Assembly (NCBI GenBank): GCA_913056235.1
Contig: CAJXMW010000004.1
Location: 124,001-188,000 of the forward strand
DNA from: an uncultured Fodinibius sp.
Lineage (GTDB): Bacteria > Bacteroidota > Rhodothermia > Balneolales > Balneolaceae
Direction: 5' to 3'
DNA: 64,000 nucleotides
The position numbers and the translations under genes are program-made. The notes under the pieces are model-generated. The model did not search any database and was not told the DNA's origin. It was given only the letters and a program-made list of their open reading frames with translations. This document shows positions 38,561 to 58,890 of the stretch, in pieces; within the stretch, counting starts at the first letter, position 1, and each line of letters opens with the position of its first letter.

Positions 38561-39699
38561 TTTCAGGTTTAAAACGGCATATCGCCCGGCATGTAAAAAA
38601 TCTATCTGGATGGCGGACGGATCGCAAAATTGTTGTGATTGAAAGCGATGACTGGGGAAGTATTCGGATGCCTTCAAAGCAGGTATATCAAAGATGCCTG
38701 AAGGCGGGATATCGGGTTGATAAAATAGCATATGAGCGTTATGACAGCCTGGCCAGTGAGGATGATCTGGAACTGTTATTTGGGTTGTTGAAAACGGTCA
38801 AAGATCAGAACGGGAACGCTCCTGTATTAACAGCTAATATATTAACGGCAAATCCGGATTTTGACAAAATTAAAGCTTCGGGTTATCGGGAATATTTTTA
38901 CGAATTGATCACGAAGACTTTCGGCAGATACCCAAAGCATTCCAACTGCCTGAATTTATGGAAGATAGGACGGAGAGAGGGGATCTTTTATCCCCAGTCA
39001 CACGGCCGAGAACACGTGAATGTGTCTCTATTTATGAATGCTCTACAGCAAGGTGATGAAGATGTGTTATTCGCATTTGAAAATAGAATGGCCGGAAGCA
39101 TTCCTAAAAGTAACCCTATGCAGGGTAATCATTTTGTAGAATCACTGCGATATACTAATCAGCATGACAAGGAACAGAAGCTGTCGTTTGTTTTAGAAGG
39201 GTTAGATTTGTTTGAAGATCTGATGGGATACCGTTCGGAAACTTTTATTCCACCTAATTATATATGGAGTCCTGATTATGACGAATCAATGGCCCAAAAG
39301 GGAATACGTTATTATCAGGGGCACCGTAAAATGAGGGAGCCATTATTTGATGGTTCGATCCGGATGAATCGCCACAGGTTGGGAGAAGAGAATAAATTTG
39401 GCCAGAAATATTTGGTGAGAAATGCCATGTTTGAGCCCGCGATGTTTAACGCTAATCAGAATCCGGTAGGTAGTTGTTTACAGGATATATCGGCAGCTTT
39501 TAGAATGAATAAACCCGCTGTAATCTGTTCTCATCGATTGAACTATGTTGGATTTATCGAGCAGAGAAACAGGGATCGCAACTTGCGAATGCTCAAAGAA
39601 CTATTGTCGGAGATCACAAAACGGTGGCCGCAGGTCGAATTTTTAAATTCAGTACAGTTAGGAAATATGATGGTGAAAGAAAATGGAAGAGACATTTAA
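38557..39699 (+). CDS. NodB-like polysaccharide deacetylase-related protein (copy 1)
   Basis: A metal-site pattern of the NodB fold is visible: VVIESDDWGSIRMPS (catalytic and metal Asp pair) and a His pair in SHGREHVN, with VICSHRLNYVG near the end. The product is soluble, without a signal peptide, so it should act in the cytoplasm. The paralog at 55185 has the same motifs. Both sit next to ATP-grasp or adenylating genes. Deacetylase activity is inferred; the true substrate is unknown. Confidence 0.68.
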   Translation: MISGLKRHIARHVKNLSGWRTDRKIVVIESDDWGSIRMPSKQVYQRCLKAGYRVDKIAYERYDSLASEDDLELLFGLLKTVKDQNGNAPVLTANILTANPDFDKIKASGYREYFYELITKTFGRYPKHSNCLNLWKIGRREGIFYPQSHGREHVNVSLFMNALQQGDEDVLFAFENRMAGSIPKSNPMQGNHFVESLRYTNQHDKEQKLSFVLEGLDLFEDLMGYRSETFIPPNYIWSPDYDESMAQKGIRYYQGHRKMREPLFDGSIRMNRHRLGEENKFGQKYLVRNAMFEPAMFNANQNPVGSCLQDISAAFRMNKPAVICSHRLNYVGFIEQRNRDRNLRMLKELLSEITKRWPQVEFLNSVQLGNMMVKENGRDI

Positions 39700-40801
39700 G
39701 AATATCGTAAAAAGTAACCACCTTAGTAGCAAGAGCAAGCTCAAAAATCTGCTTTATTACTATTCAAGGAGAAGTGGCGCTATTAAGTCTTGGGAGAATA
39801 GGCATCAACAGGTTTTTAAGATTAATAGTACCTACAATACTCCATGTAGCGACGAGGTGGAGCTGGAACACCAACAAAAATGGTCGGCATTTAGAACAAA
39901 AGTTGATCTAAGTACGCTTAGATTATGTAAGAATATCTCGGGCCATGCCGATGCACGAATCATTCCGGAAGATATCTTTGTGTCGGATATAGAACCTACA
40001 CTGATGTCGGATGACTCGGTCCATTTTCTAAGTCATAAGAGTTTCTATAATCGCTGGTTTTCGAATGGGATTTTTCCGAGAGACATCTTTCATCGTATTA
40101 ACGGTCAATACCTTGATTCGTCGTTGAATCCCGTTAGTTTCGATGAGATAAAAAAACAAATATCGGATATTTCTTATCCGGTGGTGTTGAAGCCGAACAA
40201 AGATTCATTCGGAGGCAAGGATGTATTCTTTATTAATAATGCTGATACGCTTACCAAGGTCTGTGGGGAAAACAGGGACTTTGTAGTACAAGAGCAGATA
40301 CGCCAGCATGAGTTCTTTAAGAAGTATAACCCCGTTGGTCTTAACACAATTAGGGTGTACGTCTATAAATCCGTGAAAGATGACCGCTATCATGTGTTGA
40401 ATATGGCTTTCCGAATGGGAAAGGGCGGATCGCTGGATAACGAGACCTCCGGTGGTATTCACACGATGATAAATCCAGGGGGGCGATTAAATGGTTATGC
40501 AGTGGATAAGTATGGTACCAGATATGAAAAACATCCTGATACTGGCTACAACTTTGATGAAGTAATACCTGCGTATGAGGAGTTAGAGAAACTTGCCATT
40601 AAAATCGCACAGCAGGTATACTTCTCCAGAATTATTGGATTGGACGCTTGTTACGATCAGGAAGGCAAGTGGCGAGCAATTGAAGTAAATACGAAGGGCC
40701 ATACTATTCGTTTTTCACAATATGGGGGACAACCATTTTTCGGTGAGTTCACGGATGAGGTGATAGAATACTGTACACGTAATCATTGGGGATTAAAATA
40801 G
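39683..40801 (+). CDS. ATP-grasp enzyme, sugar-transfer-associated type (A)
   Basis: ATP-grasp fold of the sugar-transfer-associated type. The nucleotide-binding part has YPVVLKPNKDSFGGKDVF (Lys and Gly-rich loop), then VVQEQIRQHEFFKKYNP, GLNTIRVYVYKS, EKHPDTGYNF and the acidic metal site DACYDQEGKWRAIEVNTKGH. Such enzymes join a carboxylate to an amine through acyl phosphate. It overlaps the NodB-like gene by 17 bp. It is more distant from the three copies that follow. Confidence 0.82.
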   Translation: MEETFKNIVKSNHLSSKSKLKNLLYYYSRRSGAIKSWENRHQQVFKINSTYNTPCSDEVELEHQQKWSAFRTKVDLSTLRLCKNISGHADARIIPEDIFVSDIEPTLMSDDSVHFLSHKSFYNRWFSNGIFPRDIFHRINGQYLDSSLNPVSFDEIKKQISDISYPVVLKPNKDSFGGKDVFFINNADTLTKVCGENRDFVVQEQIRQHEFFKKYNPVGLNTIRVYVYKSVKDDRYHVLNMAFRMGKGGSLDNETSGGIHTMINPGGRLNGYAVDKYGTRYEKHPDTGYNFDEVIPAYEELEKLAIKIAQQVYFSRIIGLDACYDQEGKWRAIEVNTKGHTIRFSQYGGQPFFGEFTDEVIEYCTRNHWGLK

Positions 40802-40803
40802 AG

Positions 40804-41892
40804 ATGCCAGACTTCACAAAATATAGCATACCAGCTAGAATCTTGTTTCGAGAAAAGATGATGTTGAATCGTATAACAGATTCGTGGAATACGTATGTAG
40901 ATTCGAGGATGTCACGAGATGATGCGAATCAGATTAGGAAGCGGTTAGTATCAAACAGAGGTAGGAAAATCATTGACAAAAAGCTGGATAAGAAAATTAA
41001 AGCATATTGCCGTAAAGCATTTGGGAGTTCTTCTTATTGGCCTTGGATAGCCCTTTATACAGAGCTGAGGGGAGAGTTTAAGGAGGGCTGGATGCCAGAT
41101 GATTATTATCGGTTTCGCTTGTTGCCAAAGGTGAATCCCGAAAAGTTTATGAAATTTAGTGAAGCAAAGACAATAGACTATAAGTTATTTAATGAGTCTA
41201 TTGTTGCCCCGATTATCTTTAGAACCAACGGACGGTATTATAACAAGGGTGGAACCTTTAAAGAAATATCAGAGGTGAGAAAAATACTTGACAGCATTAA
41301 AGGTGAAGTCATCATAAAACCTGCTGACGGACATAGTGGTAAGGAGATAATGTTTAAGAAATCAAAAGAAATAAAACTCGAAGAGTTGCCAGAAGAGACA
41401 GATCTGGTAATTCAAAAAGTTGTTTCACAACACCCTGAGTTGCAAAAATTATATCCCTATTCGGTTAACACGTTTCGCGTCATGACTTACTTGGGGCAGG
41501 ATGGTTCTGTTGAAGTCAAATTTATTATCAACAGGTTTGGCAGAGCGGGCATAAGAGTCGACAACGCGTCTAGTGGAGGGGCTTGGATATATGTGAACCT
41601 AGATGGCACCGTAGAAACATTCGGATATGATTTTATTGGTAATAAAATAGGGCAAAAACATCCCGATACCCATATACAATATTCTGAATTAAAGTTCCCG
41701 TTTATCGATAAAGTAATTTCCTTCTGCAAGGAAGTTCATCTCAGCTTCCCATATGTAAGAATTGTTGGTTGGGATGTATTTGTCGACGAAAATGAAGAGC
41801 CAAAACTTATCGAGTGGAATGCCAATAATCCATTTTTCAATGTTATTGAAGCTCATTTTGGACCATATTTTGCTGATTTACTTGAATACTAA
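40804..41892 (+). CDS. ATP-grasp enzyme, sugar-transfer-associated type (B)
   Basis: Key segments are SSYWPWIALYTELRGEFKEGWMPDDYY, VIIKPADGHSGKEIMFK, SVNTFRVMTYLGQDG, KHPDTHIQYSELKFPF and the metal site GWDVFVDENEEPKLIEWNANNP. It is a close paralog of the genes at 43101 and 44301. I start at the ATG at 40804, two bases after the previous stop, rather than the TTG at 40786. Confidence 0.85.
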   Translation: MPDFTKYSIPARILFREKMMLNRITDSWNTYVDSRMSRDDANQIRKRLVSNRGRKIIDKKLDKKIKAYCRKAFGSSSYWPWIALYTELRGEFKEGWMPDDYYRFRLLPKVNPEKFMKFSEAKTIDYKLFNESIVAPIIFRTNGRYYNKGGTFKEISEVRKILDSIKGEVIIKPADGHSGKEIMFKKSKEIKLEELPEETDLVIQKVVSQHPELQKLYPYSVNTFRVMTYLGQDGSVEVKFIINRFGRAGIRVDNASSGGAWIYVNLDGTVETFGYDFIGNKIGQKHPDTHIQYSELKFPFIDKVISFCKEVHLSFPYVRIVGWDVFVDENEEPKLIEWNANNPFFNVIEAHFGPYFADLLEY

Positions 41893-41926
41893 ACTAATAG
41901 GCTATTAAACTGTTGAAAATGATTTT

Positions 41927-42955
41927 ATGAAAATTGCGATACATCAAAAGGAAAATGACTTTAGCTCCAGGTGGATTGACTACTGCAAAAGCCACCTGAT
42001 TGACTACAAGATTGTGAACTGTTATGACAGTGATATCATATCCCAGGTAGAAGATTGTGATGCAGTGATGTGGCATTTCAGTCAGACTGATCCGAGAGAT
42101 CATTTATTTGCGAAACAATTACTATTTGCCTTGCAAACGGCAGGCAAAAAAGTTTTCCCTGATTTTAATACGGCATGGTATTTTGATGACAAAGTGGGAC
42201 AAAAATATCTTTTGGAAGCAATCGGAGCACCCGTCGTACCTTCGTACGTTTTCTATGACAAACAGAAAGCTCTTGACTGGGTCGAAGAAGCTGACTTTCC
42301 AAAAGTATTTAAGTTGCGGAGAGGGGCCGGCTCCAATCATGTTAAATTAGTTCATACGAAATCAGAAGCAAATAAATTAGTCAGAAGGGCATTTTCCCGG
42401 GGGTTCAGCCAGTATGATAAGATTGCTAACCTGCAAGACCGGTGGTACAAGTACAAAAAAGGAAAAACCAGTTTTTGGGACGTTTGCAAAGCCGTTCTTC
42501 GCTTTGGCAAAACGACGGAGTTTGCAAGAATTGCAGGACCGGAGAAGGGATATATTTACTTTCAGGATTTCATTGAAGGTAATGATTCAGATATTCGTGT
42601 TATCGTCATAGATGGAAAAGCTTTTGCCATCAAACGGCTTGTTCGTGATGGAGATTTTCGGGCCTCAGGCAGTGGTCATGTGCTGTACGAAAAGCAGCAT
42701 TTTAATGAAGAAACCTTGCGGTTATCGTTTGACGTTGCCGAAAAAATCGACAGCCAGTGCCTTGCAATTGATTTTGTATATGGGGAGGGAAAGCCCCTGA
42801 TTGTGGAACTGAGTTATGGCTTTATCAAGGAGGTCTACTATTCTTGCGAAGGTTACTGGGATCGTGACCTGATATGGCATGAAGGTCCGTTCGATGCTCA
42901 GGGTTGGATGGTAGAACTTCTGTTGGACGAGATGAAAATGAGTAAATTGGAGTAA
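41927..42955 (+). CDS. ATP-grasp enzyme, RimK-like (C)
   Basis: A different ATP-grasp branch from its neighbours. It has a pre-domain (KIAIHQKENDFSSRWIDYC), NTAWYFDDKVGQKYLLEAIGAPVVPSY, FPKVFKLRRGAGSNHVKLV as nucleotide loop, YFQDFIEGNDSDIRVIVIDGKAFAIKRLV and the metal site AIDFVYGEGKPLIVELSYGF. This is RimK/glutathione-synthetase-like, so an amino-acid ligase activity is plausible. It sits inside the run of type B paralogs. Confidence 0.85.
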   Translation: MKIAIHQKENDFSSRWIDYCKSHLIDYKIVNCYDSDIISQVEDCDAVMWHFSQTDPRDHLFAKQLLFALQTAGKKVFPDFNTAWYFDDKVGQKYLLEAIGAPVVPSYVFYDKQKALDWVEEADFPKVFKLRRGAGSNHVKLVHTKSEANKLVRRAFSRGFSQYDKIANLQDRWYKYKKGKTSFWDVCKAVLRFGKTTEFARIAGPEKGYIYFQDFIEGNDSDIRVIVIDGKAFAIKRLVRDGDFRASGSGHVLYEKQHFNEETLRLSFDVAEKIDSQCLAIDFVYGEGKPLIVELSYGFIKEVYYSCEGYWDRDLIWHEGPFDAQGWMVELLLDEMKMSKLE

Positions 42956-43100
42956 AAAGGAGGACTCCAGGCTTTTTATGATTTATCTGGGGAATAAATA
43001 AGTCCCGGAGAGAGAGGATTGGGATCTGATGATGAACAGACGAAATCAGGTCTCGGTAGGTGTTAAATAGTAAAAACATCAATTAAAACATCGTTGGCAT

Positions 43101-44228
43101 ATGTATAGTCTATCATCGAAAATATCGTATCGTTTAAAAATAAAGCTGGATCAAATTGAAAATAGCTTTAGTAGGTATGTAAGCATTAAACTTTGTAGAA
43201 ATGAGGCAAAAACATACAGGAAACAGGTGATTGCGTTGAAAGGAAAATCGATTATTGACCGGTCATTAATGAGAGAAATCAAGGAGTATTGCCGTAAAGT
43301 TTTTGGGAGTACATCATATTGGCCTTGGATAGCCCTTTACACTGAGTTGAGGGGAGAGTTCAAGAGAGGATGGATGCCAGACGATTATTATCGCTTTGAA
43401 TTTCTGACGAAAATGAATCCTGAACGATACATGAAGTTTAGTGATGCAAAAACGATTGATCATAAACTGTTTGACGGTTTTATCATTGAACCCTTGTTTT
43501 TCCGTACAAATGGCCAGTTTTGTCTAAAGGATGGTACTGTAATTTCGAAATCAGAAGTCAGAAGCATACTTAGTGATATGAACGAAGAAATTATCATAAA
43601 ACCGGATAACGGGAGGGGCGGCAAGCGCATTACTTTTAAGCATTCGAGCGAATTACGCTTAGATGAGCTTCCAACTGATACCGATCTTCTGTTTCAAAAA
43701 GTGTTCAAACAGCATGAAGAATTGCAAAAATTGTATCCCCATTCTGTGAATACGTTCCGTGTGCATACGTTTATTGATAACCAGGGAACGGTAAATGTTA
43801 AGTTTGCCTACCTCCGATTCGGCCGAGGGGGCAGCAGGGTAGACAATTCTTCAAGTGGCGGAGGATGGCTGTTTATTGATTCAGATGGAACAATAATGCC
43901 GCACGCTTATGTAGATATTGGACTGGAAATAGGCGAAACCCATCCAGACACAGGTGTAAAGTTTGCTGAGCTTAAATTCCCATTTTTACCAAAAGTAAAA
44001 GAACTTTGTAAAAGGGCGCACCGCTCTTTTCCGCATACGCGCGTTATTGGGTGGGATGTTTGTATTGATGAAGAGGGAGAGCCAAAACTTATTGAGTGGA
44101 ACGCTAACAATCCTGGGTTCTGGGTTAATGAGGCACACTATGGGCCATTTTTTGATGAGCTCCTAATCAGCAAGCCCACATTGGTTAAGAAACCAAAACA
44201 AAAAGAGAGACTGGCTGCAATACATTAA
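43101..44228 (+). CDS. ATP-grasp enzyme, sugar-transfer-associated type (D)
   Basis: Paralog of the gene at 40804. Matching segments are STSYWPWIALYTELRGEFKRGWMPDDYY, IIIKPDNGRGGKRITFK, SVNTFRVHTFIDNQG, THPDTGVKFAELKFPF and GWDVCIDEEGEPKLIEWNANNP. A lysine-rich tail follows. 375 aa. The flanking gap (42956-43100) has a TGGCAT at 43094 but no -12 element. It is probably in the same long operon. Confidence 0.85.
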   Translation: MYSLSSKISYRLKIKLDQIENSFSRYVSIKLCRNEAKTYRKQVIALKGKSIIDRSLMREIKEYCRKVFGSTSYWPWIALYTELRGEFKRGWMPDDYYRFEFLTKMNPERYMKFSDAKTIDHKLFDGFIIEPLFFRTNGQFCLKDGTVISKSEVRSILSDMNEEIIIKPDNGRGGKRITFKHSSELRLDELPTDTDLLFQKVFKQHEELQKLYPHSVNTFRVHTFIDNQGTVNVKFAYLRFGRGGSRVDNSSSGGGWLFIDSDGTIMPHAYVDIGLEIGETHPDTGVKFAELKFPFLPKVKELCKRAHRSFPHTRVIGWDVCIDEEGEPKLIEWNANNPGFWVNEAHYGPFFDELLISKPTLVKKPKQKERLAAIH

Positions 44229-44300
44229 TTACAAGATACCGTATATGGGTCTTTATCAGTTCCAAATAGAATCATCAAATAATGCAAGAGAGAGTAACAG

Positions 44301-45374
44301 ATGTATAGTATTTCTTCAAGAATATCGTATAGAATCAAGGTGATGTTGAATCGAGTGAATAACTCATGGGATAAATATTCCCGCATAAGGATGTCAAGGC
44401 TAGAAGCGCGCATCCTAAGAAAGGAGATTATCGCTGAAAATGGTAAGACGATGGTAACCCCTCGACTTATGAAAGAGATTAAAAAATACTGTCGCAACAC
44501 TTTCGGAAGCAGTGCCTATTGGCCTTGGCTGGCAGTATATACGGAACAGACCGGAGAGTTTAAGAATGGGTGGATGCCGTATGAATATTATCGTTATGAA
44601 TTATTGCCCCAAATGAATCCTGAGAAATACAGAGACTTTAGTGAGTGCAAACATTTAGATTACAAATTATTTAACGGTTCTGTCGTAGAACCATTGTTTT
44701 TTAGATTCAATGGCTTGTATTATCACAAACAGGGGGCGGCACTAAAAAAGTCAGAAGTGAACGAGATTTTAGGAGAAATTGACAACGAGGTTGTTATAAA
44801 GGCCGTATCAGGAGGTGGAGGGAAGAATGTGATGTTTAAGCAATCCTCGGAGGTGTGTCTTGAAGAGTTGCCAGAGAGTTCTGATTTGCTGTTTCAAAAC
44901 GCAGTTGAACAACATTCGGAGCTTGATAAATTGTATCCCCATTCCATAAATACGTATCGGGTGTTAACCTTTCTTGATAACAAAGGGACAGTTAAGACAA
45001 AATTTGTAATCCTGCGGTTTGGACGTGGTGGGAATCGAGTTGATAATTGTTCCAGAGGTGGAGGATGGGTTTTTGTTTACCCGGATGGGACCTTATCAAC
45101 TAAGGGTCATGATGAATATGGATATAGTTTAGGAAACACACATCCGGATACGGGCACAGAGTTCAAAAAGTTAAGCCTTCCATTTTTGGACCAGGTAAAT
45201 GCCCTATGCAAAAAGGCTCACGGAGCGTTTCCATTCACTCGGATTATCGGCTGGGATGTTTATATCAATAAAGAGGGAGAGGCAAAATTAATTGAATGGA
45301 ATGCTGAGACACCGGGGTTTTGGAGTTTCGAAGCACATTATGGGCCATTCTTTGAAGAGTTGCTACCAGTTTAA
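44301..45374 (+). CDS. ATP-grasp enzyme, sugar-transfer-associated type (E)
   Basis: A third copy of the same subfamily. Its start (MYSISSRISYRIKV) nearly repeats that of the gene at 43101 (MYSLSSKISYRLKI), showing tandem duplication. Segments are SSAYWPWLAVYTEQTGEFKNGWMPYEYY, VVIKAVSGGGGKNVMFK, SINTYRVLTFLDNKG, THPDTGTEFKKL and GWDVYINKEGEAKLIEWNAETP. In the metal site the usual Asp is Asn (YINKEG), so metal binding may differ. Confidence 0.85.
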   Translation: MYSISSRISYRIKVMLNRVNNSWDKYSRIRMSRLEARILRKEIIAENGKTMVTPRLMKEIKKYCRNTFGSSAYWPWLAVYTEQTGEFKNGWMPYEYYRYELLPQMNPEKYRDFSECKHLDYKLFNGSVVEPLFFRFNGLYYHKQGAALKKSEVNEILGEIDNEVVIKAVSGGGGKNVMFKQSSEVCLEELPESSDLLFQNAVEQHSELDKLYPHSINTYRVLTFLDNKGTVKTKFVILRFGRGGNRVDNCSRGGGWVFVYPDGTLSTKGHDEYGYSLGNTHPDTGTEFKKLSLPFLDQVNALCKKAHGAFPFTRIIGWDVYINKEGEAKLIEWNAETPGFWSFEAHYGPFFEELLPV

Positions 45375-45437
45375 ATCAATCAGTTGTTAATTGCTATGAA
45401 TATTTTTATCAATTTCATCATTACCGGTTGACAAGTC

Positions 45438-46823
45438 ATGAAAACAAATTGGTCTAAGATAGTTCTATCTACAGTTTTTTTGGTTTGGGTATCAGGGTTC
45501 GTTTTAGTACCCGAAATAGAAGCACAAATACCGATCAGCTCAGCTGAAGATCGACAGGCCCTAATGGAACTCTATCGGGCAACCGGAGGCGACAACTGGA
45601 ACAATAATAGTGGATGGGGAAAAAGGAAACCCTCTAACGCCTGGTTTGGAGTACAAGTTGATAGAAAAGGTCGTGTTGTTCGCCTTGATTTGCAAGATAA
45701 TAACCTTACCGGCAGTTTACCGTCATCGATTGGGAATTTAAGCGAACTGAGATACTTGAACCTTAAGCAAAATCAATTGACGGGAAATCTTCCAAAGGAG
45801 ATTGGTAACATGCAGTCACTAGAATTTCTGCTGCTTTCCGGACGCACTTTTGATCCCCACTATACGAACGATCACCATCCCGGGAAAGAAGATGAGTCTA
45901 CCAATGAATTCACCGGTGAGCTTCCGGCCGAGTGGGGTAAATTATCACGAATTCAGCATATCGAATTGTCGCATAACCGTTTATCCGGCAGCATTCCCGA
46001 CACATGGGGTAATATGACTTTGCTCCGCGGGTTGTGGCTGAACGGAAATGGCCTGACTGGACAGCTTCCGACCGCCCTTGGCAATCTATCGAATTTGAGG
46101 AACCTGTCCCTGAGCCATAATAACTTTTCGGGGGAAGTTCCCCTGGAATGGTCCAAAATGGTCCAAATGCGGTTCCTGCGTCTTAATAACAACAGCCTGA
46201 AGGGTAACTTCTCAACCTCTTTTGCCAACTGGAGATATCTGAATTTGTTTTACCTGAACAAAAACAATTTCAGCGGTGAATTTCCTTCGTTTCTTGTAAG
46301 TGGCAAATTGACCAATCTAGCCACTATTGGATTATCGCATAATAAATTTTCTGGTCCATTGCCGGATTTTACTCCTCTTCTAAATGCTAACATTTATGTA
46401 CTTGAACTTGATAATAATGATTTCAGTGGGCCTATTCCGCCAGCGATTACCCGGATGCAAAACGCAGTAATTTTAGCTTTTGGGTGGAATGAATTTACTG
46501 GCCAGCTGCCTCAAATTGGTTGGTCAAATTTACGGCATCTCCGATTTTTAAGGGTATCAGATAATAAACTAACGGGTCCCATTCCCAGTGAGTTGCCGGA
46601 TAATCCAAAACTGAAATGGCTGTGGTTTCAAAACAATGAGTTTACCAGTGCAGATCCTGCTGCATTTGCAAATCTAAAGAGCAAAGAGCTAAAAGAAATC
46701 AATATTGGAGGGAACTGTTTATCCTACGAAGAACATATTGCACCGGCGGTGGCTCATCTAACTGATATGAATTTTTTGTATGGTAACCAGTCGGAGAAAA
46801 AAGATTTAAAGATTGAGCGATAA
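45438..46823 (+). CDS. secreted leucine-rich-repeat protein
   Basis: A signal peptide of about 33 residues ends EAQ. The LRR N-cap DRQALMELYRATGGDNWNNNSGW is of the plant-like type, followed by about 12 repeats of the LxxLxLxxNxLxGxIPxxxGN form to the C-terminal cap. There is no membrane anchor, so the protein should be extracellular. It closely matches the C-terminal half of the lipoprotein at 47163. It is likely a ligand-binding surface or matrix protein made with the polymer. Confidence 0.87.
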   Translation: MKTNWSKIVLSTVFLVWVSGFVLVPEIEAQIPISSAEDRQALMELYRATGGDNWNNNSGWGKRKPSNAWFGVQVDRKGRVVRLDLQDNNLTGSLPSSIGNLSELRYLNLKQNQLTGNLPKEIGNMQSLEFLLLSGRTFDPHYTNDHHPGKEDESTNEFTGELPAEWGKLSRIQHIELSHNRLSGSIPDTWGNMTLLRGLWLNGNGLTGQLPTALGNLSNLRNLSLSHNNFSGEVPLEWSKMVQMRFLRLNNNSLKGNFSTSFANWRYLNLFYLNKNNFSGEFPSFLVSGKLTNLATIGLSHNKFSGPLPDFTPLLNANIYVLELDNNDFSGPIPPAITRMQNAVILAFGWNEFTGQLPQIGWSNLRHLRFLRVSDNKLTGPIPSELPDNPKLKWLWFQNNEFTSADPAAFANLKSKELKEINIGGNCLSYEEHIAPAVAHLTDMNFLYGNQSEKKDLKIER

Positions 46824-47162
46824 TATTATACAGTATCGCTATTTATTGAATTCTGTATGAACAATTTTCGGTCGATTACAAGAATTATTTTCCCTGTTTC
46901 CCTTCTAATTTACGGCTGACTAAACCTCTACTTTCTCTATCTTCATGCCAACCAATCTGTTAGCGAGATAGTAGATCCTTTCTATATTGCGTGATAAAAT
47001 TTGGAACAATCGATGTAGGGGAAAGTATGATTTATCTTGTAATAATTATTACTAAATTGTTGTAATTATTACGTTTAAAAATAAAATTTGACGGCAATAG
47101 GCAAGAAACCCCAAACCCCAATTTCTTGCACTTTCCTACAACCCCAAAAGTAAGTACAGATT
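46824..47162. other. 339-bp gap between the two LRR genes
   Basis: AT-rich, no gene, no -24/-12 element. The one structure I see is a hairpin GCAAGAAA (47101-47108)/TTTCTTGC (47122-47129), with a C- and A-rich loop, 34 bp upstream of the next start. Confidence 0.45.
47101..47129 (+). promoter_or_regulatory. hairpin just upstream of the LRR lipoprotein gene
   Basis: GCAAGAAA and TTTCTTGC form a perfect 8-bp stem with a 13-nt loop (CCCCAAACCCCAA). It lies in the leader 34 bp before the ATG at 47163. Confidence 0.35.
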
Positions 47163-50021: not shown

Positions 50022-50052
50022 TATTTAAGCATTATAGCTTATATCATCTATA

Positions 50053-50087
50053 AGCCGAGGTCGGATAATCGACCTCGGCTTTTTTTA
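50053..50087 (+). terminator. Rho-independent terminator after the LRR genes
   Basis: AGCCGAGGTCG (50053-50063) and CGACCTCGGCT (50070-50080) form an 11-bp GC-rich stem with a 6-nt loop and are followed by a run of T. It ends the LRR transcription unit 32 bp after the stop codon. Confidence 0.92.
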
Positions 50088-50112
50088 TTTGTGTCATTTT
50101 TATTTAAGACCC

Positions 50113-50129
50113 AGTGTAATAATTACGCA
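50113..50129. promoter_or_regulatory. putative activator binding site (UAS)
   Basis: AGTGTAA-TAA-TTACGCA matches the core GNGTAA-N3-TTACNC of the dyad, centred 136 bp upstream of the -24 element at 50257. Confidence 0.55.
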
Positions 50130-50256
50130 TCAGGATTTACTACGTGTTCTCGAAACTCCTTTCTAAGACTTCTTTACAATATGCTGGGCACCGGCAATTG
50201 GATTTTAAAAGCAAATAAACTTTTAAAGAGAATAAATTAGTGAGACTGTATCGCAT

Positions 50257-50272
50257 TGGCATAACTATTGCT
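50257..50272 (+). promoter_or_regulatory. sigma-54 -24/-12 promoter of the lipoprotein-sulfotransferase operon
   Basis: TGGCAT-AACTA-TTGCT, with the canonical -12 TTGC and one change in the -24 hexamer, 59 bp upstream of the ATG at 50332. Confidence 0.8.
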
Positions 50273-50331
50273 ACTTCTATTTAAAAGGTAGTGGCTATAA
50301 ACCTAACAATAGAAAAAACAATGGGGAGAAT

Positions 50332-51000
50332 ATGAAAAATATGGCTAGAGGTATTGCATGCCTAATGCTGATTGTGTTAGCAGGCATTAATGTTTCTTGT
50401 AAAAAGGATGTTACCGGGCATGAGCCCGAAATTTCAGATGCGCTTGACCCAATTGAGGAAGTAGTGTCGGTACCAAGTGGGGAAAACGTAACGATAACTG
50501 TAAACAGGAATTCGGGAAACCATGCTTATTTTAGCATCGGATTTAGTGGCATCAAAGAAAATATGATTATTGATAACACTATCAGAGATGGTTGGTGTAT
50601 TGATATCAGAACCCCGATTAATCGCAACAATGCTGTGTATGAAGGGATTAAGCTTTATTCCACATTCCGAGTAAAGAGCTGGCAACGAATAAATTACCTC
50701 TTCAATATGAAGGATCAACTAATGGCTAGTGATCCGAATCTGACTTGGCGTGAGTTTCAACTAGTAATTTGGTCTCTTCGTCTCTATCCGCAGTTTAAAT
50801 TGGATGATGTAGCTGTAGAAGACTTGCCAAATGAAATGCAAACCAATGGTGAGCCAAGATTTGACCGTGAAAAAGTTAAAGAATTGTTGGACATGGTAGA
50901 GTCAGGTTACCAAGAATTTACGTATGAGCCTGGTGTTAAGTATGCTGTAATTATTGAAACGCCGGCCGATGTTCAAACTTTAATAACATTTGTTGAATAA
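50332..51000 (+). CDS. lipoprotein with possible Cys-Gln thioester-type domain
   Basis: A lipoprotein signal with lipobox INVSC (Cys23) and a mature part of about 200 aa. I do not recognise it as a named family. Two segments recall bacterial thioester domains, in which a Cys and a Gln side chain form a reactive bond: GWCIDI (Cys89) and, later, EFQLVIWSL (Gln143), with SWQRINYLFN between them. This is pattern-level similarity only. It is the first gene behind a -24/-12 promoter, ahead of sulfotransferase and glycosyltransferase genes. If real, it could link covalently to amines on the polymer. Confidence 0.6.
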   Translation: MKNMARGIACLMLIVLAGINVSCKKDVTGHEPEISDALDPIEEVVSVPSGENVTITVNRNSGNHAYFSIGFSGIKENMIIDNTIRDGWCIDIRTPINRNNAVYEGIKLYSTFRVKSWQRINYLFNMKDQLMASDPNLTWREFQLVIWSLRLYPQFKLDDVAVEDLPNEMQTNGEPRFDREKVKELLDMVESGYQEFTYEPGVKYAVIIETPADVQTLITFVE

Positions 51001-51027
51001 TCAGGAAACAGGAGTATATCATCAACT

Positions 51028-51705
51028 ATGCTTATTTCTGAAAAAAATAAATACATATTTATATCAATACCCAAAACTGGAACTACTGCAATACAAAGTT
51101 TCCTGATGGAAAATGATAACAGTTGCGTAATGAATGCTATTCAGGTGGGGGATAACCGCATCAAAATTAATGAGCATATCAAAACAAAAAAGTTAAAAGA
51201 GCTGATGGGGAGAGCATTTGATGAGTATACGGTTTTTACCTTTATAAGAGATCCTGAGTCAAGAGGGGTGTCGGCTTATTTTTTTTATAAAAATGGTAAT
51301 ACACTAAAGTCACATCATATTACTCGAAATCTGATGGCTTGGGCGAATGTCTTTTTAACAAAGATATTTCCATTCAGCTTGTGGTCTCTTATCAAGCCGC
51401 AAAAGAAACTGGTTGATTACTTTTTTGATGACAATAACAATTTGCTAATCGATTTAGTAGGCAAAACGGATAATCTAAAAGAAGATCTCTTATCGATATC
51501 TGAGATCATTGGTATTCCGTTGCAAGATGGAGATATACCCGTTAAAAATCGATCAAAACACTTATCAGTTGAGGAATATTATGTAAACAGCGTCCACAAA
51601 AAGCTATATGATAAGCTGATCGAAAAGGACTTAAAATTATATGGCAAATATAGAGATAGCATATATACGGGAAACATAACTTTTAACCATTTGACCTATG
51701 ATTAA
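51028..51705 (+). CDS. sulfotransferase-family protein
   Basis: Transfers sulfate from PAPS to a hydroxyl or amine, here most likely on the polysaccharide. The 5'-phosphosulfate loop IPKTGTTAIQSF is at about residues 13-24, and the 3'-phosphate-binding segment FTFIRDPESRGVSAY at about 70-85. 225 aa, cytoplasmic. The stop overlaps the next start by 8 bp. A sulfated polymer would fit a marine or saline habitat. Confidence 0.85.
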   Translation: MLISEKNKYIFISIPKTGTTAIQSFLMENDNSCVMNAIQVGDNRIKINEHIKTKKLKELMGRAFDEYTVFTFIRDPESRGVSAYFFYKNGNTLKSHHITRNLMAWANVFLTKIFPFSLWSLIKPQKKLVDYFFDDNNNLLIDLVGKTDNLKEDLLSISEIIGIPLQDGDIPVKNRSKHLSVEEYYVNSVHKKLYDKLIEKDLKLYGKYRDSIYTGNITFNHLTYD

Positions 51706-54024: not shown

Positions 54025-55204
54025 GAGAATTGTAATCGTCAACCAAGCTTCGAATTACCTTACAGTAGGTCTCTGTAACGCATTTACAGAAAAGTTTGAA
54101 GATGTAAAACTCATAACCGGGAGCATTCATGTACAGGGAGAGAAACTGAGTGCATCCGTTGGAGTGTCAAAAATATGTAAGTGGAAAGAACGGCCTGCCA
54201 GAGCTAAAATGATTTCCTATCTGAAGGCCTGCTTCCAGGTATATTGGTTATTGTTGACGCGGTATCGTAAGTATGACGTTCTTTTTGTTTCGCTGCCACC
54301 CATGGGTTACCTGATGTCAATTGTACTCCCAAACAGGTGCAGTATGCTTATTTGGGATGTCTATCCCGATGTTTTCAAAATTACCGGCATGAGAGAATCA
54401 CATCTTCTTTATCGGTTTTGGGGGTATTTAAACCGAAAAGTATTCCGGCGGGCCTACCGATTATTTACGATTGGCAATAAGATGGCGGACTTACTATCGG
54501 AATATGTCGATCGAGAAAAAATATTTATCACACCAATCTGGTCTATTTTTCAGTCTAATGGCAAAGTAGAGAAATGGGATAATCCTTTCGCCAGGCAACA
54601 TAAGCTCGGTAGCAAATTTGTGGTGCAGTATTCAGGTAATATTGGTCTTACCCACAATGTAGAGGTGATGGTACAGCTTGCTGAGCTATTGAAATCGCAA
54701 GAAGATATCCTGTTTCAGATCATAGGTCGGGGCCCAAGGATGCCGTACTTGCAGTCGTTGGTAAAACAGCGTGGTTTGCCTAATTGTCAATTTCTCCCTT
54801 TTCAATCGGATGAAATGTTTCCCTTTTCGCTGTCAGCTGCGGATCTGGGAGTTGTTATCCTGGATGAGAGTACTTCCAAGGGCAGTGTTCCCAGTAAGTC
54901 TTACAATTTAATGAGTTACGGGATACCCTCACTCTATGTCGCATCGGAGGATTCAGAACTACATGATTATGCTGAGAACTACGGTCACGCTAAGTGTGTA
55001 AATCATGATAAACTAGATGAAGCTGTTGAGTATATCCTTGCGTTGAAGAACGATCAGAATCTGCATGAGAAGTATTCACAAAATGCACTGACGGCTTCCC
55101 TGAACTATCGGCGATCGAATGCGGATCAAATTGTAGAATACTATTTAGAAACTTCCGGTGTCAACCAATTAAATACCTATAACCATGCCTCTGAAAGATA
55201 TTAA
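54011..55204 (+). CDS. GT4-like glycosyltransferase, WbuB-like
   Basis: GT-B fold with a recognisable donor domain: VVQYSGNIGLTHNVEVMVQLA, IIGRGPRMPYLQSLV, and PSKSYNLMSYGIPSLYVASEDSEL in the position of EX7E. I start at the ATG at 54011, overlapping the previous gene by 14 bp. An ATG at 53972 would add 13 residues of poor fit. It ends 20 bp inside the next gene. Confidence 0.83.
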   Translation: MQKDRRIVIVNQASNYLTVGLCNAFTEKFEDVKLITGSIHVQGEKLSASVGVSKICKWKERPARAKMISYLKACFQVYWLLLTRYRKYDVLFVSLPPMGYLMSIVLPNRCSMLIWDVYPDVFKITGMRESHLLYRFWGYLNRKVFRRAYRLFTIGNKMADLLSEYVDREKIFITPIWSIFQSNGKVEKWDNPFARQHKLGSKFVVQYSGNIGLTHNVEVMVQLAELLKSQEDILFQIIGRGPRMPYLQSLVKQRGLPNCQFLPFQSDEMFPFSLSAADLGVVILDESTSKGSVPSKSYNLMSYGIPSLYVASEDSELHDYAENYGHAKCVNHDKLDEAVEYILALKNDQNLHEKYSQNALTASLNYRRSNADQIVEYYLETSGVNQLNTYNHASERY

Positions 55205-56375
55205 AACCTCGATTACACTTAATGCAAAAAATTTGATAGGCTGGAAGACCAAACGTAAAATTGTAGTCATATCGGTAGATGATTATGGCAACGTCCGACT
55301 CCACTCCAGAGGGGCCAGAGAAAATATGGATCGGGAAGGGATGAAGGTCTATAATCGGTTTGATGCGTATGATACATTGGAAACAAGGGAAGATTTGGAA
55401 GCCCTCTACGAGGTCCTCACTTCGGTAAAAGACAAGAATGGCCGTCATGCTGTGTTCACGCCCTTTGCCTTGCCATGCAATATCAATTTTGAGAAGATGG
55501 CCGAAACCGGATATAAAGAATACCACAGAGAGTTGCTTCCGGAAACGTTTGAGAAATTAACGGTTCTTCAACCTGATGCGTACGAAGGCAGTTGGTCCCT
55601 TCTTCAGGAAGGAATAGCAAAAGGATTGATGGTTCCGCAGTTTCATGGTCGAGAGCATCTCAATTTGAAAGTTTTTGAGGAAAAATTAGCTAAGAGGGAC
55701 CACGAAGTGCTCACGGCGTTGCGAAACCGATCATATACTAGTATTTCTTCGAGCGGATATCCAACGATTCCCTATACTGCTGCATTTTCGTTCTGGAATT
55801 TCGGGGAGACTCGTCACTTTGATGAGATAATCCGGGATGGAATTGGAGCATTTGAGTTGGTTTACGGATACCGTCCCGTTCACTTTAATTCACCGGGGAC
55901 CCATGAGCACCCGGTGATTCACAAGGTACTCAAAGAAAAAGGCGTCAAATTTATAGATGCTACCTTGCTAAAACATGAGCACCTGGGGAACGGCAAATTC
56001 AGCAGAAAGCTTACCTATACCGGCAAAAGAAACCATCTGGATCAGATTTACCTTGTCCGGAATGTGGTATTTGAACCAACCGAAAGTCGCAGCGTAAACT
56101 GGGTTGAGTTCACGATGAAGCAGATAGAGGCAGCATTTCGCTGGAATCGACCTGCAATTATCAGTTCACATAGAGTTAATTTTTGCGGTCATATCGATGA
56201 ACAGAACAGGGAAGTGGGATTACATGCTCTCCGAGAACTACTGCAAAAAATCACAAGACGATGGCCGGATGTGGAGTTTATGGCTGCTAATGAGTTGGGA
56301 GCTTTAATTAATTCTGGTTTTGAATCAGTCCCCGCCCGAAGTAGAGCAGTTGGGAATTCCGAATATAGTTACTAA
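55185..56375 (+). CDS. NodB-like polysaccharide deacetylase-related protein (copy 2)
   Basis: Paralog of 38557-39699. The shared start (LKDIKTSITLNAKNLIGWKTKRKIVVISVDDYGNVRL) carries the metal Asp pair as VDDYG instead of SDDWG. The His pair is in FHGREHLN and the late His in ISSHRVNFCGH. Cytoplasmic, 396 aa. It precedes the CapK-like gene by 21 bp. Activity is inferred from the motif pattern only. Confidence 0.68.
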   Translation: MPLKDIKTSITLNAKNLIGWKTKRKIVVISVDDYGNVRLHSRGARENMDREGMKVYNRFDAYDTLETREDLEALYEVLTSVKDKNGRHAVFTPFALPCNINFEKMAETGYKEYHRELLPETFEKLTVLQPDAYEGSWSLLQEGIAKGLMVPQFHGREHLNLKVFEEKLAKRDHEVLTALRNRSYTSISSSGYPTIPYTAAFSFWNFGETRHFDEIIRDGIGAFELVYGYRPVHFNSPGTHEHPVIHKVLKEKGVKFIDATLLKHEHLGNGKFSRKLTYTGKRNHLDQIYLVRNVVFEPTESRSVNWVEFTMKQIEAAFRWNRPAIISSHRVNFCGHIDEQNREVGLHALRELLQKITRRWPDVEFMAANELGALINSGFESVPARSRAVGNSEYSY

Positions 56376-56396
56376 AAAAATCAAGACGGGAGTAAA

Positions 56397-57692
56397 ATGC
56401 TTCAGCAGGCAAGAGAACGCGTTTTTTGGCTATACGACAGGTTCAAAGGTTCAATAGTCAAGAATCATCTCAGTGATATATCTACCATACTAAACAGAAT
56501 GGATGATAGCGCAGAGAGGAAAACTGAGGACCGGCTGTCGGCATTGCTTACCCATGCTTCTGATACGACAGTGTATTATGCTTCGTTACAAGATAGCAGT
56601 AACCTGCAGGATTACCCGGTCATTAACAAAAATGTTATTCGTGAGAATTACGATCAATTCATTTCTCGGGATTTCGATCGAAATCAATTAAAACCGGCCG
56701 TTACCAGCGGTTCTACGGGCACGCCTTTCAAGGTTTTGCATGACCGGAATAAAGTATTAAGAAATACTGCTGACACCCTGTACTTTTCGAGTCTTGCCGG
56801 TTATGAGCTCGGCCAGCGATTGTATTATCTGAAGATCTGGAACAAAACAAACCGGAAAAGCTGGCTCTCTTTATTTATGCAGAATATCGTTCCGGTTGAT
56901 GTCAGTGATCAGTCAAATTCGTTCCTTGAGCAGTTTGCAGAACATTTAAATAATGATAAAGCGCCGAAATCTCTTTTGGGTTATGCTTCTGCCTTCGAGG
57001 TGTTATGTAGTTATTTGGAAGAAAAAAATATTGAAAAGGTCACATCAAAGGCCAAGTCGGTCATAACCATGTCGGAAGCACTTAATAATGTGACCAAGCA
57101 GAATATCAAAAAATATTTTGACTGCCAGGCATTGGCCAGATACTCAAATATTGAAAACGGTATTCTTGCACAACAAATGCCCGACGATGACCGGTACGCT
57201 TTAAACAGAGCTAGCTATTATTTTGAATTGCTTAAAATGAATAGTAACGATCCTGTTGAGCTGGGAGAGCCAGGGCGCATTGTGGTCACAGACCTGTTTA
57301 ACTATGGCATGCCTCTAATTAGATATGACACAGGGGATATCGGAATATTTGAACAGCAGGAATCAGGAGAGTTACTGTTGGCAAGAGTGGAAGGGCGTAG
57401 GATGGATATGATCTACAATAGCCGGGGTAAACTGGTGTCCTCCTATATAATAACCAACAATATGTGGAAATATACTGAAATCAAGCAGTATCAATTTATC
57501 CAGAAATCGGCCAACGACTATTGCTTTAGGTTAAGTGTTACAGATCAATTTGATTGTGAAGAGGAGCTCGTCAATGAATTTGAGCAGTATTTTGGCGAAG
57601 CTTCCCAAATTGAGGTAGAATATGTATCCGAAATACCACTGTTATCATCAGGAAAAAGAAAGAAAGTAGTTAACGAAATGTATCAAATGTGA
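56397..57692 (+). CDS. CapK/PaaK-like adenylate-forming enzyme
   Basis: Family of phenylacetate-CoA-ligase-like proteins, which activate a carboxylic acid as an acyl-adenylate. It has the P-loop-like motif TSGSTGTPFK (about residues 101-110), a central YSNIENGILAQQ, the ATP site IRYDTGDIG, and GRRMDMIYNSRGKLVSSY. Members occur in capsule loci (CapK), where they are thought to supply an acyl group for sugar decoration. It follows the second NodB-like gene and precedes an ATP-grasp gene. Confidence 0.83.
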   Translation: MLQQARERVFWLYDRFKGSIVKNHLSDISTILNRMDDSAERKTEDRLSALLTHASDTTVYYASLQDSSNLQDYPVINKNVIRENYDQFISRDFDRNQLKPAVTSGSTGTPFKVLHDRNKVLRNTADTLYFSSLAGYELGQRLYYLKIWNKTNRKSWLSLFMQNIVPVDVSDQSNSFLEQFAEHLNNDKAPKSLLGYASAFEVLCSYLEEKNIEKVTSKAKSVITMSEALNNVTKQNIKKYFDCQALARYSNIENGILAQQMPDDDRYALNRASYYFELLKMNSNDPVELGEPGRIVVTDLFNYGMPLIRYDTGDIGIFEQQESGELLLARVEGRRMDMIYNSRGKLVSSYIITNNMWKYTEIKQYQFIQKSANDYCFRLSVTDQFDCEEELVNEFEQYFGEASQIEVEYVSEIPLLSSGKRKKVVNEMYQM

Positions 57693-57885
57693 GGTTAGGG
57701 TTGTAGAATCAAACTTATGGGCTCGCTCAAATAATTTATAGGTACATCATAAAAAATTGGATCAGATCGTTTAGTTTTTAGACATATCATTATAAAAAAG
57801 TAATTCTAGGTTTCGGGTTTTTTAAGTAATATATATTAGTACGTGGTCCAAAAAAAGAGACCGTAATAACAAAACGTTGGCTAAA

Positions 57886-58890
57886 ATGAAACTAAAGAGA
57901 GTATTATATCTGGGGTACTATCTTAAACAATTGGACACTGAGAAGTTTGCCCAATTTTTTGATTACGCAAAAACTGTGACAGGGAAGTCATCCACTGCAC
58001 TGCTTGTCGACATCCTGAAATCAGTGTTAAACTATAATATTTCGGTGCTCGAATATTTTCAATTTCGTTTTTATATGCTTTCAAAGCAGGAGAGAGAAGC
58101 GTGGGCTGGAACAGGCCATATGTATGAATATCAGCTACGGATGAATCCCAGAAATGCTCGTCAGATCCTGGAAGACAAGACATTGTTTTATAAGAACTAC
58201 GGCGATTTTTTTGTCCATAATGTAGCAGATATCAAAGATCTGCAAAGCAAACCAGAGCTAGCGAATGCAATTTTGGGGAATTCCTCAGAGAAACTAGTGT
58301 TAAAATCTGCCGACGGTAATTGTGGCAAAGAAGTAGAAATACGAGACTGCAAGGATTTTGACCGAGAAGGCCTTATTAACTACATGGAGGTCATGGATTA
58401 CGACTTGGTGGAAGAATTTATCATACAGCATTCAGAGCTAAACAGGTTGTCACCATCGGCCGTAAACACCGTGCGCATTTTTACACAGCTGGATGAAAAA
58501 TCCGGAGTTGTAATCCTTGGATGCAGGTTGCGTATCTCAGTTAATTCACCGGTCGATAATATGGCAGCCGGAAACTTAGCAGCTCCCATTGATATATCCA
58601 CTGGTCGCTTAAGTGGCCCTGGCGTATATAGTGATGTAACCAAAACTGAAGAGGAACATCATCCAATTACAAAGGTAAAAATACCCGGGTTTGAAATTCC
58701 TTTTTGGAAAGAGACGCTTGAGATGGTGGAAAAAGCGGCTTTGCTTCATCCTCAAAATAGATCTATCGGTTGGGATGTTGTAATTACTGACAAAGGACCC
58801 GGACTTATTGAAGCAAATCATGATTGGTGTAAACTGCTGTGGCAGCTTCCGGTAAAACAGGGATTGAAATCGTCCTTACAGTTTAAATGA
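57886..58890 (+). CDS. ATP-grasp enzyme, sugar-transfer-associated type (F)
   Basis: The sixth ATP-grasp gene of the locus and the most divergent of its type. It has KLVLKSADGNCGKEVEI as nucleotide loop, LVEEFIIQHSELNRLSPSAVNTVRIFT, EEHHPITKVKIPGFEIPFW and the metal site GWDVVITDKGPGLIEANHDW. I use the ATG at 57886; a TTG at 57877 would add three residues. Eight bases separate it from the phosphoglycosyl transferase gene. Confidence 0.83.
   Translation: MKLKRVLYLGYYLKQLDTEKFAQFFDYAKTVTGKSSTALLVDILKSVLNYNISVLEYFQFRFYMLSKQEREAWAGTGHMYEYQLRMNPRNARQILEDKTLFYKNYGDFFVHNVADIKDLQSKPELANAILGNSSEKLVLKSADGNCGKEVEIRDCKDFDREGLINYMEVMDYDLVEEFIIQHSELNRLSPSAVNTVRIFTQLDEKSGVVILGCRLRISVNSPVDNMAAGNLAAPIDISTGRLSGPGVYSDVTKTEEEHHPITKVKIPGFEIPFWKETLEMVEKAALLHPQNRSIGWDVVITDKGPGLIEANHDWCKLLWQLPVKQGLKSSLQFK

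Follow-up and report, generated by a model that had tools for sequence, protein, structure and literature searches.

Acids and amino acids are amide-linked to bacterial polysaccharides in many known structures, and the enzymes that attach them are often unidentified. For the Wbp/Vim system of Porphyromonas gingivalis and Tannerella forsythia, excerpts of the published account name VimE as a putative CE4 deacetylase, VimA as the transferase of an amino acid and WbpS as an amidotransferase of the AsnB type; a C2 acetyl group is exchanged for serine or glycine, and WbpS of P. gingivalis turns a uronate into its amide (PMC7468200). According to another excerpted source, the C-terminal TupA-like ATP-grasp domain of Campylobacter jejuni Cj1438 amidates glucuronic acid (PMC11800379), and exopolysaccharide loci of the XrtA/PEP-CTERM type are described in excerpts as pairing a deacetylase (TIGR03006) with an asparagine synthase (TIGR03108 amidotransferase) (PMC4784049; PMC7468200). 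The N-alanyl deoxyhexose of Prevotella intermedia has a pathway that its authors, in the text excerpted, call unknown (PMC11969387). Here we analyse a stretch of 64,000 nucleotides (the window) from an uncultured Fodinibius sp. (GCA_913056235.1, contig CAJXMW010000004.1, positions 124,001 to 188,000 of the forward strand). It holds a Wzy-type polysaccharide locus with genes for two NodB-like proteins (NodB1 and NodB2) and, as a preliminary description of this DNA had noticed, six ATP-grasp genes: five members of the family PF14397 (ATPgrasp_ST), here called AG1 to AG5 in their order along the DNA, and one RimK-type ligase. The window system is a variant of the known amide-decorating polysaccharide chemistry, with other enzymes. 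The explanation that we put first, tentatively and just short of an even chance, is that the locus swaps acyl groups on amino sugars, by de-N-acylation followed by ATP-driven amide formation, in a lipid-linked, Wzy-polymerised surface polysaccharide. The earlier statement that no described pathway has this set of genes holds for these enzymes and not for their logic, which is that of Wbp/Vim and, for an ATP-grasp enzyme acting on glucuronic acid, of C. jejuni, as far as the excerpted accounts go.

The trio of NodB, a RimK or AG protein and a variable partner (X) shares its division of labour with Wbp/Vim as excerpted. Unlike the window enzymes, VimA is described in the excerpts as FemAB/GNAT-like and not as an ATP-grasp protein, and no FemAB/GNAT amino-acid transferase (VimA-like) was named among the 50 window open reading frames (ORFs) scanned against Pfam, a set that left out the leucine-rich-repeat (LRR) ORFs at 45438 and 47163 and short ORFs. 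A further difference is that the window-type modules do not follow the type IX secretion system (T9SS) in their distribution. Like the excerpted C. jejuni capsule amidation, the window would have an ATP-grasp enzyme of a polysaccharide locus forming a sugar amide; however, the window enzymes belong to PF14397 and are not TupA-like (the TupA ATP-grasp model was absent from the matches of all six proteins at an expectation value (E) of 0.1), and the acceptor of Cj1438 in that account is the carboxylate of glucuronic acid, its excerpts mentioning no partner deacetylase. As in the XrtA loci, relatives of the window have AsnB genes together with a deacetylase resembling TIGR03006 (246 bits, cut-off 276), but all relatives scanned stay below the XrtA family cut-offs, the scanned AsnB proteins passing the cut-off of asn_synth_AEB and falling below that of the XrtA amidotransferase model; neither a TIGR03006-type deacetylase nor a TIGR03108-type amidotransferase was seen among the window ORFs scanned. 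The five AG proteins are members of PF14397 by score and by residues, and this family is known as a model only, no characterised member having been found in the literature searched by family name or in the structures searched. The interest of the locus lies in this and in the exchange of partners beside NodB. A cassette whose ligase can be predicted from the subtype of its deacetylase would offer concrete enzyme candidates and a first handle on PF14397.

The genes fall into two modules, both recurrent in relatives, which were compared through the ORFs of 23 stretches (L037-L059) and 35 stretches (L071-L105); L numbers denote stretches and G numbers genomes. Module I lies 3' of the EpsG-type polymerase gene and reads NodB1-[X]-RimK, where X is ATPgrasp_ST in the window and elsewhere asparagine synthase, PGA_cap, both, or none. 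Module II reads NodB2, then AG5 and/or a CapK-like gene, then PglC. The CapK-like adenylating enzyme of the preliminary description scores below the cut-off of DVU_1553 AMP-ligase (Table 1) and below that of Pfam AMP-binding (13.4 bits, cut-off 29.9). The NodB tree comprises 41 genes, without NodB ORFs of at most 300 residues (a G160 fragment and the NodB2 of G030, which is cut by the boundary of the extracted stretch); L037 and L038, apparent duplicates of the genomes G003 and G008, were excluded from this tree and from the ATP-grasp tree. In the NodB1 clade (10 rows from nine genomes, 100/100, where the G160 contigs C405 and C175 may be one region in two versions), the next gene is AG1 in eight rows, one of them a 141-residue fragment at a contig end of G160, and RimK in two. 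The NodB pair of G021 and G001 (100/100) has asparagine synthase as its partner according to Pfam, and the group of G011, G113 and G160 (100/98) has PGA_cap, recognised by Pfam in G011 and G113 and by phmmer in G160. In the NodB2 clade (12 rows, 100/100), AG5 comes next in nine rows, lies one gene further in two and is absent in G002, where a CapK homologue stands alone between NodB2 and PglC; PglC follows the NodB2, CapK and AG5 genes in all 12 rows. This tracking of the partner enzyme by NodB subclades is suggestive, not statistical, because partner switches are few.

In other families of this phylum, nine loci were picked by NodB alone (nine of the 10 such genomes; G339, with a split match, was omitted), and a RimK gene occurs in the stretch in seven of them, the exceptions being L112 and L114. 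Three loci of one genus (L109, L110 and L115) have the order NodB-NodB-(PGA_cap)-AsnB-RimK, and L113 has NodB-PGA_cap-RimK-RimK. None of the nine genomes is among the PF14397-positive genomes of the phylum. AG1 thus holds the place where other lineages use asparagine synthase; the RimK-type gene is the conserved partner of NodB1-position genes. As five of the nine loci come from one genus, the independent cases are fewer than nine. The exchange of ATP-grasp, AsnB and CapK enzymes beside NodB suggests one job for them, i.e., activation of a carboxylate and amide formation on the NodB-processed sugar.

Two further kinds of genes were observed in the relatives. In L047 (G001), in line with acyl exchange, one AG3-type gene adjoins a PF01522/DUF3473 deacetylase (TIGR03006-like). 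Six relatives have a homologue of this deacetylase 5' of NodB2, either directly or with a single gene between them, and L071 has one 3' of another NodB; homologues of the L047 type were found in L046, L047, L051, L052, L071, L079 and L105, but not in the window. DUF362 and nickel-insertion (LarC-type) genes lie between the NodB pair and RimK in L108 (8571-12871) and L116 (4422-7229), with an AIR-carboxylase-like (LarB-type) gene in L108 too; these genes might point to a nickel-pincer racemase whose substrate is an acid destined for attachment.

Among 195 genomes of the class, NodB was found in 20, PF14397 in 39 and both in 18 (Fisher p 8e-13), so that PF14397 is present in 18 of 20 NodB genomes and in 21 of the 175 others; the neighbourhood survey that the preliminary description had proposed thus finds the two families together. 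The Fisher tests assume that the paired searches covered the same genomes (totals are equal and the listed no-match genomes agree), and relatedness is uncorrected. The class has 76 PF14397 genes; 42 are in NodB genomes, 35 of these within 10 kb of a NodB, and the remaining seven (G095, G194) have no NodB on the same contig. Counted from the NodB side, 19 of 43 matches have a PF14397 gene within 5 kb. Across the phylum, 22 of 394 genomes have NodB, 22 have RimK (E 1e-40) and 16 have both (Fisher p 4e-19). RimK is probably the commoner and older companion of NodB, PF14397 being a lineage-level addition. An amide-type gene (PF14397, RimK, AsnB, PGA_cap or CapK) lies no more than four genes from the NodB ORF in 41 of 58 cases and immediately adjacent to it in 32 of 58, whereas among the other ORFs of the same loci with at least 300 residues only 22 of 298 have such a neighbour; many of these loci had been chosen by ATP-grasp matches, and NodB ORFs of at most 300 residues were omitted. 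The earlier idea that deacetylases free amines and ligases then form amides is therefore backed by genomic context, that is, by this adjacency, by the RimK genes of the NodB-picked loci and by the tracking of subtypes.

The assignment of two NodB-like proteins in the preliminary description stands for the fold of NodB1 and for the invariant residues of both proteins; it does not extend to a match with any deacetylase model. The NodB1 model (predicted local distance difference test (pLDDT) score 91.3) has 3qbu as its best Foldseek match (E 1.1e-7), with VIA Z scores of 19.1 to 3rxz (root-mean-square deviation (rmsd) 3.2, 248 aligned) and 19.0 to 3qbu, and its fold neighbours are polysaccharide deacetylases, ArnD, heparan N-deacetylase and GH57 enzymes. 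Five residues (D31, D32, H149, H153 and H326 in NodB1 numbering) are invariant in 15 of 15 NodB proteins, NodB2 included, and they sit at or beside the ends of strands 25-33, 144-148 and 321-326 of the NodB1 model. D, D, H-x3-H and H at strand ends are the catalytic and metal residues of CE4 enzymes, to which the NodB proteins would correspond by motif. Because of the fold and these strand-end residues, deacetylation is the likeliest, though putative, activity of NodB1 and NodB2. The sole Pfam matches are GH57 for NodB1 (17.3 bits, cut-off 21.2) and Perilipin_2 for NodB2 (17.7 bits, cut-off 30.1), neither protein has an NCBIfam match, and the search against sequences of solved structures returned one chance-level match (E 0.9).

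The preliminary description had counted four or five ATP-grasp genes of the sugar-transfer-associated type; the type was right and the exact number is five, all above the curated cut-off of PF14397 (31.4 bits). No other gene of the 3.97-Mb genome passes this cut-off, three more matches of 20-23 bits staying below it; in a control, PF14397 passed the cut-off in two of 14 well-known genomes and reached E 1e-10 in none of the 14. The HP-x-T segment previously seen in all copies except the RimK-like one is indeed present in five of five and is a signature of the family: over 36 PF14397 proteins, H is kept in 36, P in 34 and T in 30. In the same alignment all 36 proteins have both ATP-grasp lysines, the aspartate and the glutamate, and 35 have the asparagine of E-x-N; all 16 conserved positions checked are kept in the five window copies, including K117, K167, D319, E332 and N334 (AG3 numbering). 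Structure prediction, another follow-up proposed earlier, gave an AG3 model (pLDDT 91.8) whose nearest structures are the RimK, ArgX/LysX and tubulin-tyrosine ligases (TTL) (Z 12-14), with a VIA Z of 14.1 to RimK 5zct (rmsd 3.6, 215 aligned). RimK, ArgX/LysX and TTL are carboxylate-amine ligases. Against the sequences of solved structures, PF14397 gave 11 weak, general ATP-grasp matches at E 0.01 and no close one. ATPgrasp_Ter (PF15632) was considered as the family and rejected, having one below-cut-off match elsewhere in the genome and none in the locus.

AG2, AG3 and AG4 are mutually 53-57% identical as proteins, and AG1 and AG5 share 21-28% identity with the remaining PF14397 copies. The ATP-grasp tree took ORFs of more than 250 residues and more than 100 bits (69 rows; fragments are thereby dropped). 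It contains an AG1 clade (eight rows, 100/100), an AG5 clade (13 rows, 100/100) and a clade that unites AG2-AG4 with the one copy that G003 and G008 each have (98/98), inside which AG2 groups with the G003 and G008 copies (94/90, not starred) and AG3, weakly, with AG4 (80/66). The three genes formerly read as tandem paralogs thus share a clade, which includes the copies of two other genomes; a clade made of AG2-AG4 alone is not rejected by the topology test (p-AU 0.196), so that more than one order of duplications would fit. Differences among the three at codon positions 1, 2 and 3 (0.31-0.37, 0.21-0.26 and 0.57-0.61) indicate that all of them are under protein-level constraint. Runs of at least four PF14397 genes occur in six of the 39 PF14397 genomes of the class, namely G029 (five) and the window genome, G095, G113, G152 and G160 (four each). 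In G113 a run interrupted only by NodB1 holds four PF14397 genes and two RimK genes, equal in number to the six of the window, so that six ATP-grasp genes together are not unique to it. The runs of G029, G095 and G152 (L040, L075 and L077) have no NodB in the surrounding stretch. In G043 (L048, 8188-12798), two PF14397 genes stand in a row with an uncharacterised gene and an L-amino-acid-ligase-type ATP-grasp gene (LAL_C2).

The RimK-like gene at 41927, correctly placed inside the ATP-grasp run by the first reading, passes the PF08443 cut-off and stays under that of TIGR00768 rimK_fam (63.9 bits, cut-off 143.4); its family had no match at E 0.001 among sequences of solved structures. The textbook metal motif of ATP-grasp enzymes is E-x-N, which in this ligase is replaced by E-x-S in five of five aligned orthologues.

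Acyl exchange on amino sugars would take place in the cytoplasm. In module II, NodB2 may strip the N-acetyl group from the initiating diamino-type sugar, either as a nucleotide sugar or linked to undecaprenyl, and AG5, CapK or both would activate a carboxylic acid (an amino or hydroxy acid) for coupling to the amine thus exposed. The product of the Pgl pathway is a 6-deoxy diamino sugar without a carboxylate. Because the Pgl-type neighbours point to such a sugar, AG5 and CapK would be expected to bring an acid to an amine. In module I, NodB1 may free an amine on another sugar, which the RimK-type ligase would cap with an amino acid, and AG1-AG4 could make further amides on the same repeat; the coupling in this module may run in either direction, acid to amine or amine to uronate. 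By analogy with Wbp/Vim, NodB would correspond to VimE, RimK would stand in the place of VimA, and X would be WbpS or an ATP-grasp substitute. We infer the deacetylase activity, the amide product, the compartment and the order of steps in this scheme. Several different substituents on the polymer are possible, the copy number of AG genes alone being no proof of them. A bolder version, which we consider rather unlikely, is that NodB-[amide former]-RimK represents a hitherto undescribed cassette, of general use in Bacteroidota for N-acyl exchange on surface polysaccharides, with unrelated acid-activating enzymes (ATPgrasp_ST, AsnB, CapK or PGA_cap-linked ligation) as interchangeable cartridges, each having its own NodB subtype, and that ATPgrasp_ST was multiplied in the window lineage to build a small peptide or several different amino acids on the polymer.

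Several results weigh against acyl exchange. Polysaccharide-deacetylase models (PF01522 and others) gave no match to NodB1 or NodB2 at E 0.1 in Pfam and NCBIfam, an hhalign comparison of the NodB family with the PF01522/DUF3473-type profile of deacetylases from neighbouring genomes gave a probability of 0.4%, and GH57 chains share the NodB1 fold at Z 16-18 (best 17.8, against 19.1 for deacetylases). PF14397 occurs in 29 of the 394 genomes of the phylum, 18 of them without NodB, and since only 11 of the 22 NodB genomes have it, ATPgrasp_ST is not required by NodB. In 17 of the 58 NodB cases no amide-type gene lies within four genes, six of the 17 being at a stretch edge, and in G030 AG5 is 8.8 kb from NodB2. 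Independent partner switches are few, and inherited neighbourhoods inflate every count. Finally, RimK/LysX-type ligases activate the carboxylate of the acceptor.

This last point favours uronate amidation, a possible though doubtful alternative in which AG1-AG4, together with RimK, would act on a hexuronic acid of the polymer, activating its C6 carboxylate and coupling different amines (amino acids, amino alcohols) to it, and NodB would modify the same sugar independently. Asparagine-synthase-type genes in the place of AG1 (G021, G001) and after NodB (L109, L110, L115) are consistent with it, as are the nucleotide-sugar 6-dehydrogenase gene at 17015 in the locus and the AG3 fold nearest to RimK, ArgX and TTL. 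Amidotransferases of this type make uronamides according to excerpted accounts, WbpS of P. gingivalis by mutant and WbqG as reported (PMC7468200), and the TupA-like domain of Cj1438 amidates glucuronic acid (PMC11800379, in excerpt). What uronate amidation leaves unexplained is module II, i.e., the CapK gene in the place of AG5 in G002 and AG5 itself beside PglC, PglD, DegT and PglF genes, genes whose product, a 6-deoxy amino sugar, has no carboxylate.

An unlikely alternative is a stepwise peptide, with six ligases adding residues serially to build a short peptide side chain on a sugar. It would agree with the PF14397 runs of four or five in six of 39 PF14397-bearing genomes of the class, the LAL_C2 enzyme beside two PF14397 genes in G043, the PGA_cap and RimK genes that accompany NodB in G113, G160 and G381, and the excerpted statement that serial action is frequent for linked peptide ligases (PMC4431377). 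However, otherwise similar loci have anything from zero to four PF14397 genes beside module I, and the close kinship of AG2-AG4 fits substrate variants or gene dosage equally well.

We give equally little weight to the idea that NodB1 and NodB2 are not deacetylases (e.g., GH57-like or other hydrolases) and that the ATP-grasp genes either serve some unrelated small metabolite or are redundant copies. The lack of a deacetylase family match for NodB, the closeness of the best GH57 and deacetylase Z scores and the PF14397 runs of G029, G095 and G152 speak for it; against it stand the swapping of NodB partners for other amide-type enzymes and the position of NodB among glycosyltransferases, behind the polymerase in module I and before PglC in module II, in eight of eight NodB-bearing Fodinibius genomes sampled.

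The idea that the modules make an aminoacylated linking sugar for anchoring secreted proteins by T9SS or sortase, as in P. gingivalis, is very improbable: it would follow the logic of Wbp/Vim (PMC7468200, in excerpt), and the window genome has 12 T9SS tails and one exosortase-like gene over cut-off on another contig (L120; G000 contig C7, about 830-1225), the LRR proteins encoded within the loci of G113 and G160 bear such tails, and the N-alanyl-deoxyhexose linker of P. intermedia has no known pathway in the excerpted source (PMC11969387), but tails occur in four Fodinibius genomes without NodB (G004, G006, G007, G009) and in none of five family f27 genomes that carry the NodB pair and RimK, a distribution that disfavours the tie.

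The features of the locus are collected in Table 1. The starts of AG2 and AG5 are internal ATGs, their ORFs opening at TTG 40786 and TTG 57877, respectively. The PF02719 match of the PglF-type gene was obtained on L117 (651-2588), base 1 of which is window position 62001.

Table 1. Position, strand and profile match of the main features of the locus, in window coordinates.
Feature	Position	Strand	Match (bits)	Cut-off (bits)	Remark
Nucleotide-sugar 6-dehydrogenase	17015..18412	+	TIGR03026 417	189.8 (over)	possible uronate source
WecB-type UDP-GlcNAc 2-epimerase	18419..19570	+	TIGR00236 304.9	210.15 (over)	
PIG-L-type de-N-acetylase	26090..26743	+	PF02585 63.8	28.2	
EpsG-type polysaccharide polymerase	37307..38560	+	PF14897 44.2	30.1	neighbour 5' of NodB1
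NodB1, deacetylase/GH57-type fold protein	38557..39699	+			module I; no signal peptide by eye
AG1, PF14397 ATP-grasp	39683..40801	+	PF14397 110.9	31.4	directly 3' of NodB1
AG2, PF14397 ATP-grasp	40804..41892	+	PF14397 135.9	31.4	
RimK-type ATP-grasp ligase	41927..42955	+	PF08443 38.1	21	
AG3, PF14397 ATP-grasp	43101..44228	+	PF14397 144.2	31.4	
AG4, PF14397 ATP-grasp	44301..45374	+	PF14397 118.3	31.4	
NodB2, same family as NodB1	55185..56375	+			module II; 35% identical to NodB1, same invariant residues
CapK/PaaK-like acid-adenylating enzyme	56397..57692	+	NCBIfam DVU_1553 AMP-ligase 87.7	300 (below)	
AG5, PF14397 ATP-grasp	57886..58890	+	PF14397 158.3	31.4	5' of PglC
PglC-type initiating phosphosugar transferase	58898..59509	+	PF02397 214.6		
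PglD-type sugar N-acetyltransferase	59506..60141	+	TIGR03570 169.3	160.8 (over)	
DegT aminotransferase (LegC/PglE-like)	61201..62445	+	PF01041 305; TIGR04181 367	TIGR04181 420 (below)	
PglF-type 4,6-dehydratase	62651..64000	+	PF02719 385.8		continues past window to 64591

Profile matches further identify Wza-like export (5561) and Wzz-like chain-length (6671) genes beside the EpsG-type polymerase gene (37307), and the locus also has GDP-fucose-type genes at 14965 and 15955. A Wzc-type protein is encoded, with the PglC-, PglD-, DegT- and PglF-type genes, 3' of AG5. The scan of window ORFs turned up no Wzx-type flippase, and nothing matched Rfam at gathering cut-offs. The models of UDP-ManNAc and UDP-GlcNAc dehydrogenases score below their cut-offs for the 17015 dehydrogenase. 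The PIG-L deacetylase that the preliminary description had grouped with the ATP-grasp region (39683-58890) is well matched and lies outside that range. One window ATP-grasp gene has 59% identical relatives in Aliifodinibius salipaludis and Fodinibius salsisoli. Both species have module I (L037 and L038), and module II is present in G003 and G008, apparently the same two genomes.

Between modules I and II, two secreted LRR proteins and a lipoprotein-like protein were recognised by eye (45438-50021 and 50332-51000), and homologues of these proteins recur in the loci of many relatives. A sulfotransferase gene (PF03567) is found at 51028-51705, and a weak sulfotransferase-like gene, below cut-off, lies between NodB2 and AG5 in G125 (L079, 8856-9731); the freed amines might be sulfated too. 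Lastly, a DUF4910/DUF2172/HTH_47 protein of the CA_C2195 type is encoded at 20720-22108. For this type, an excerpted source proposes a role in modified surface carbohydrates and places it near an ATP-grasp gene in Clostridium acetobutylicum (PMC4000134).

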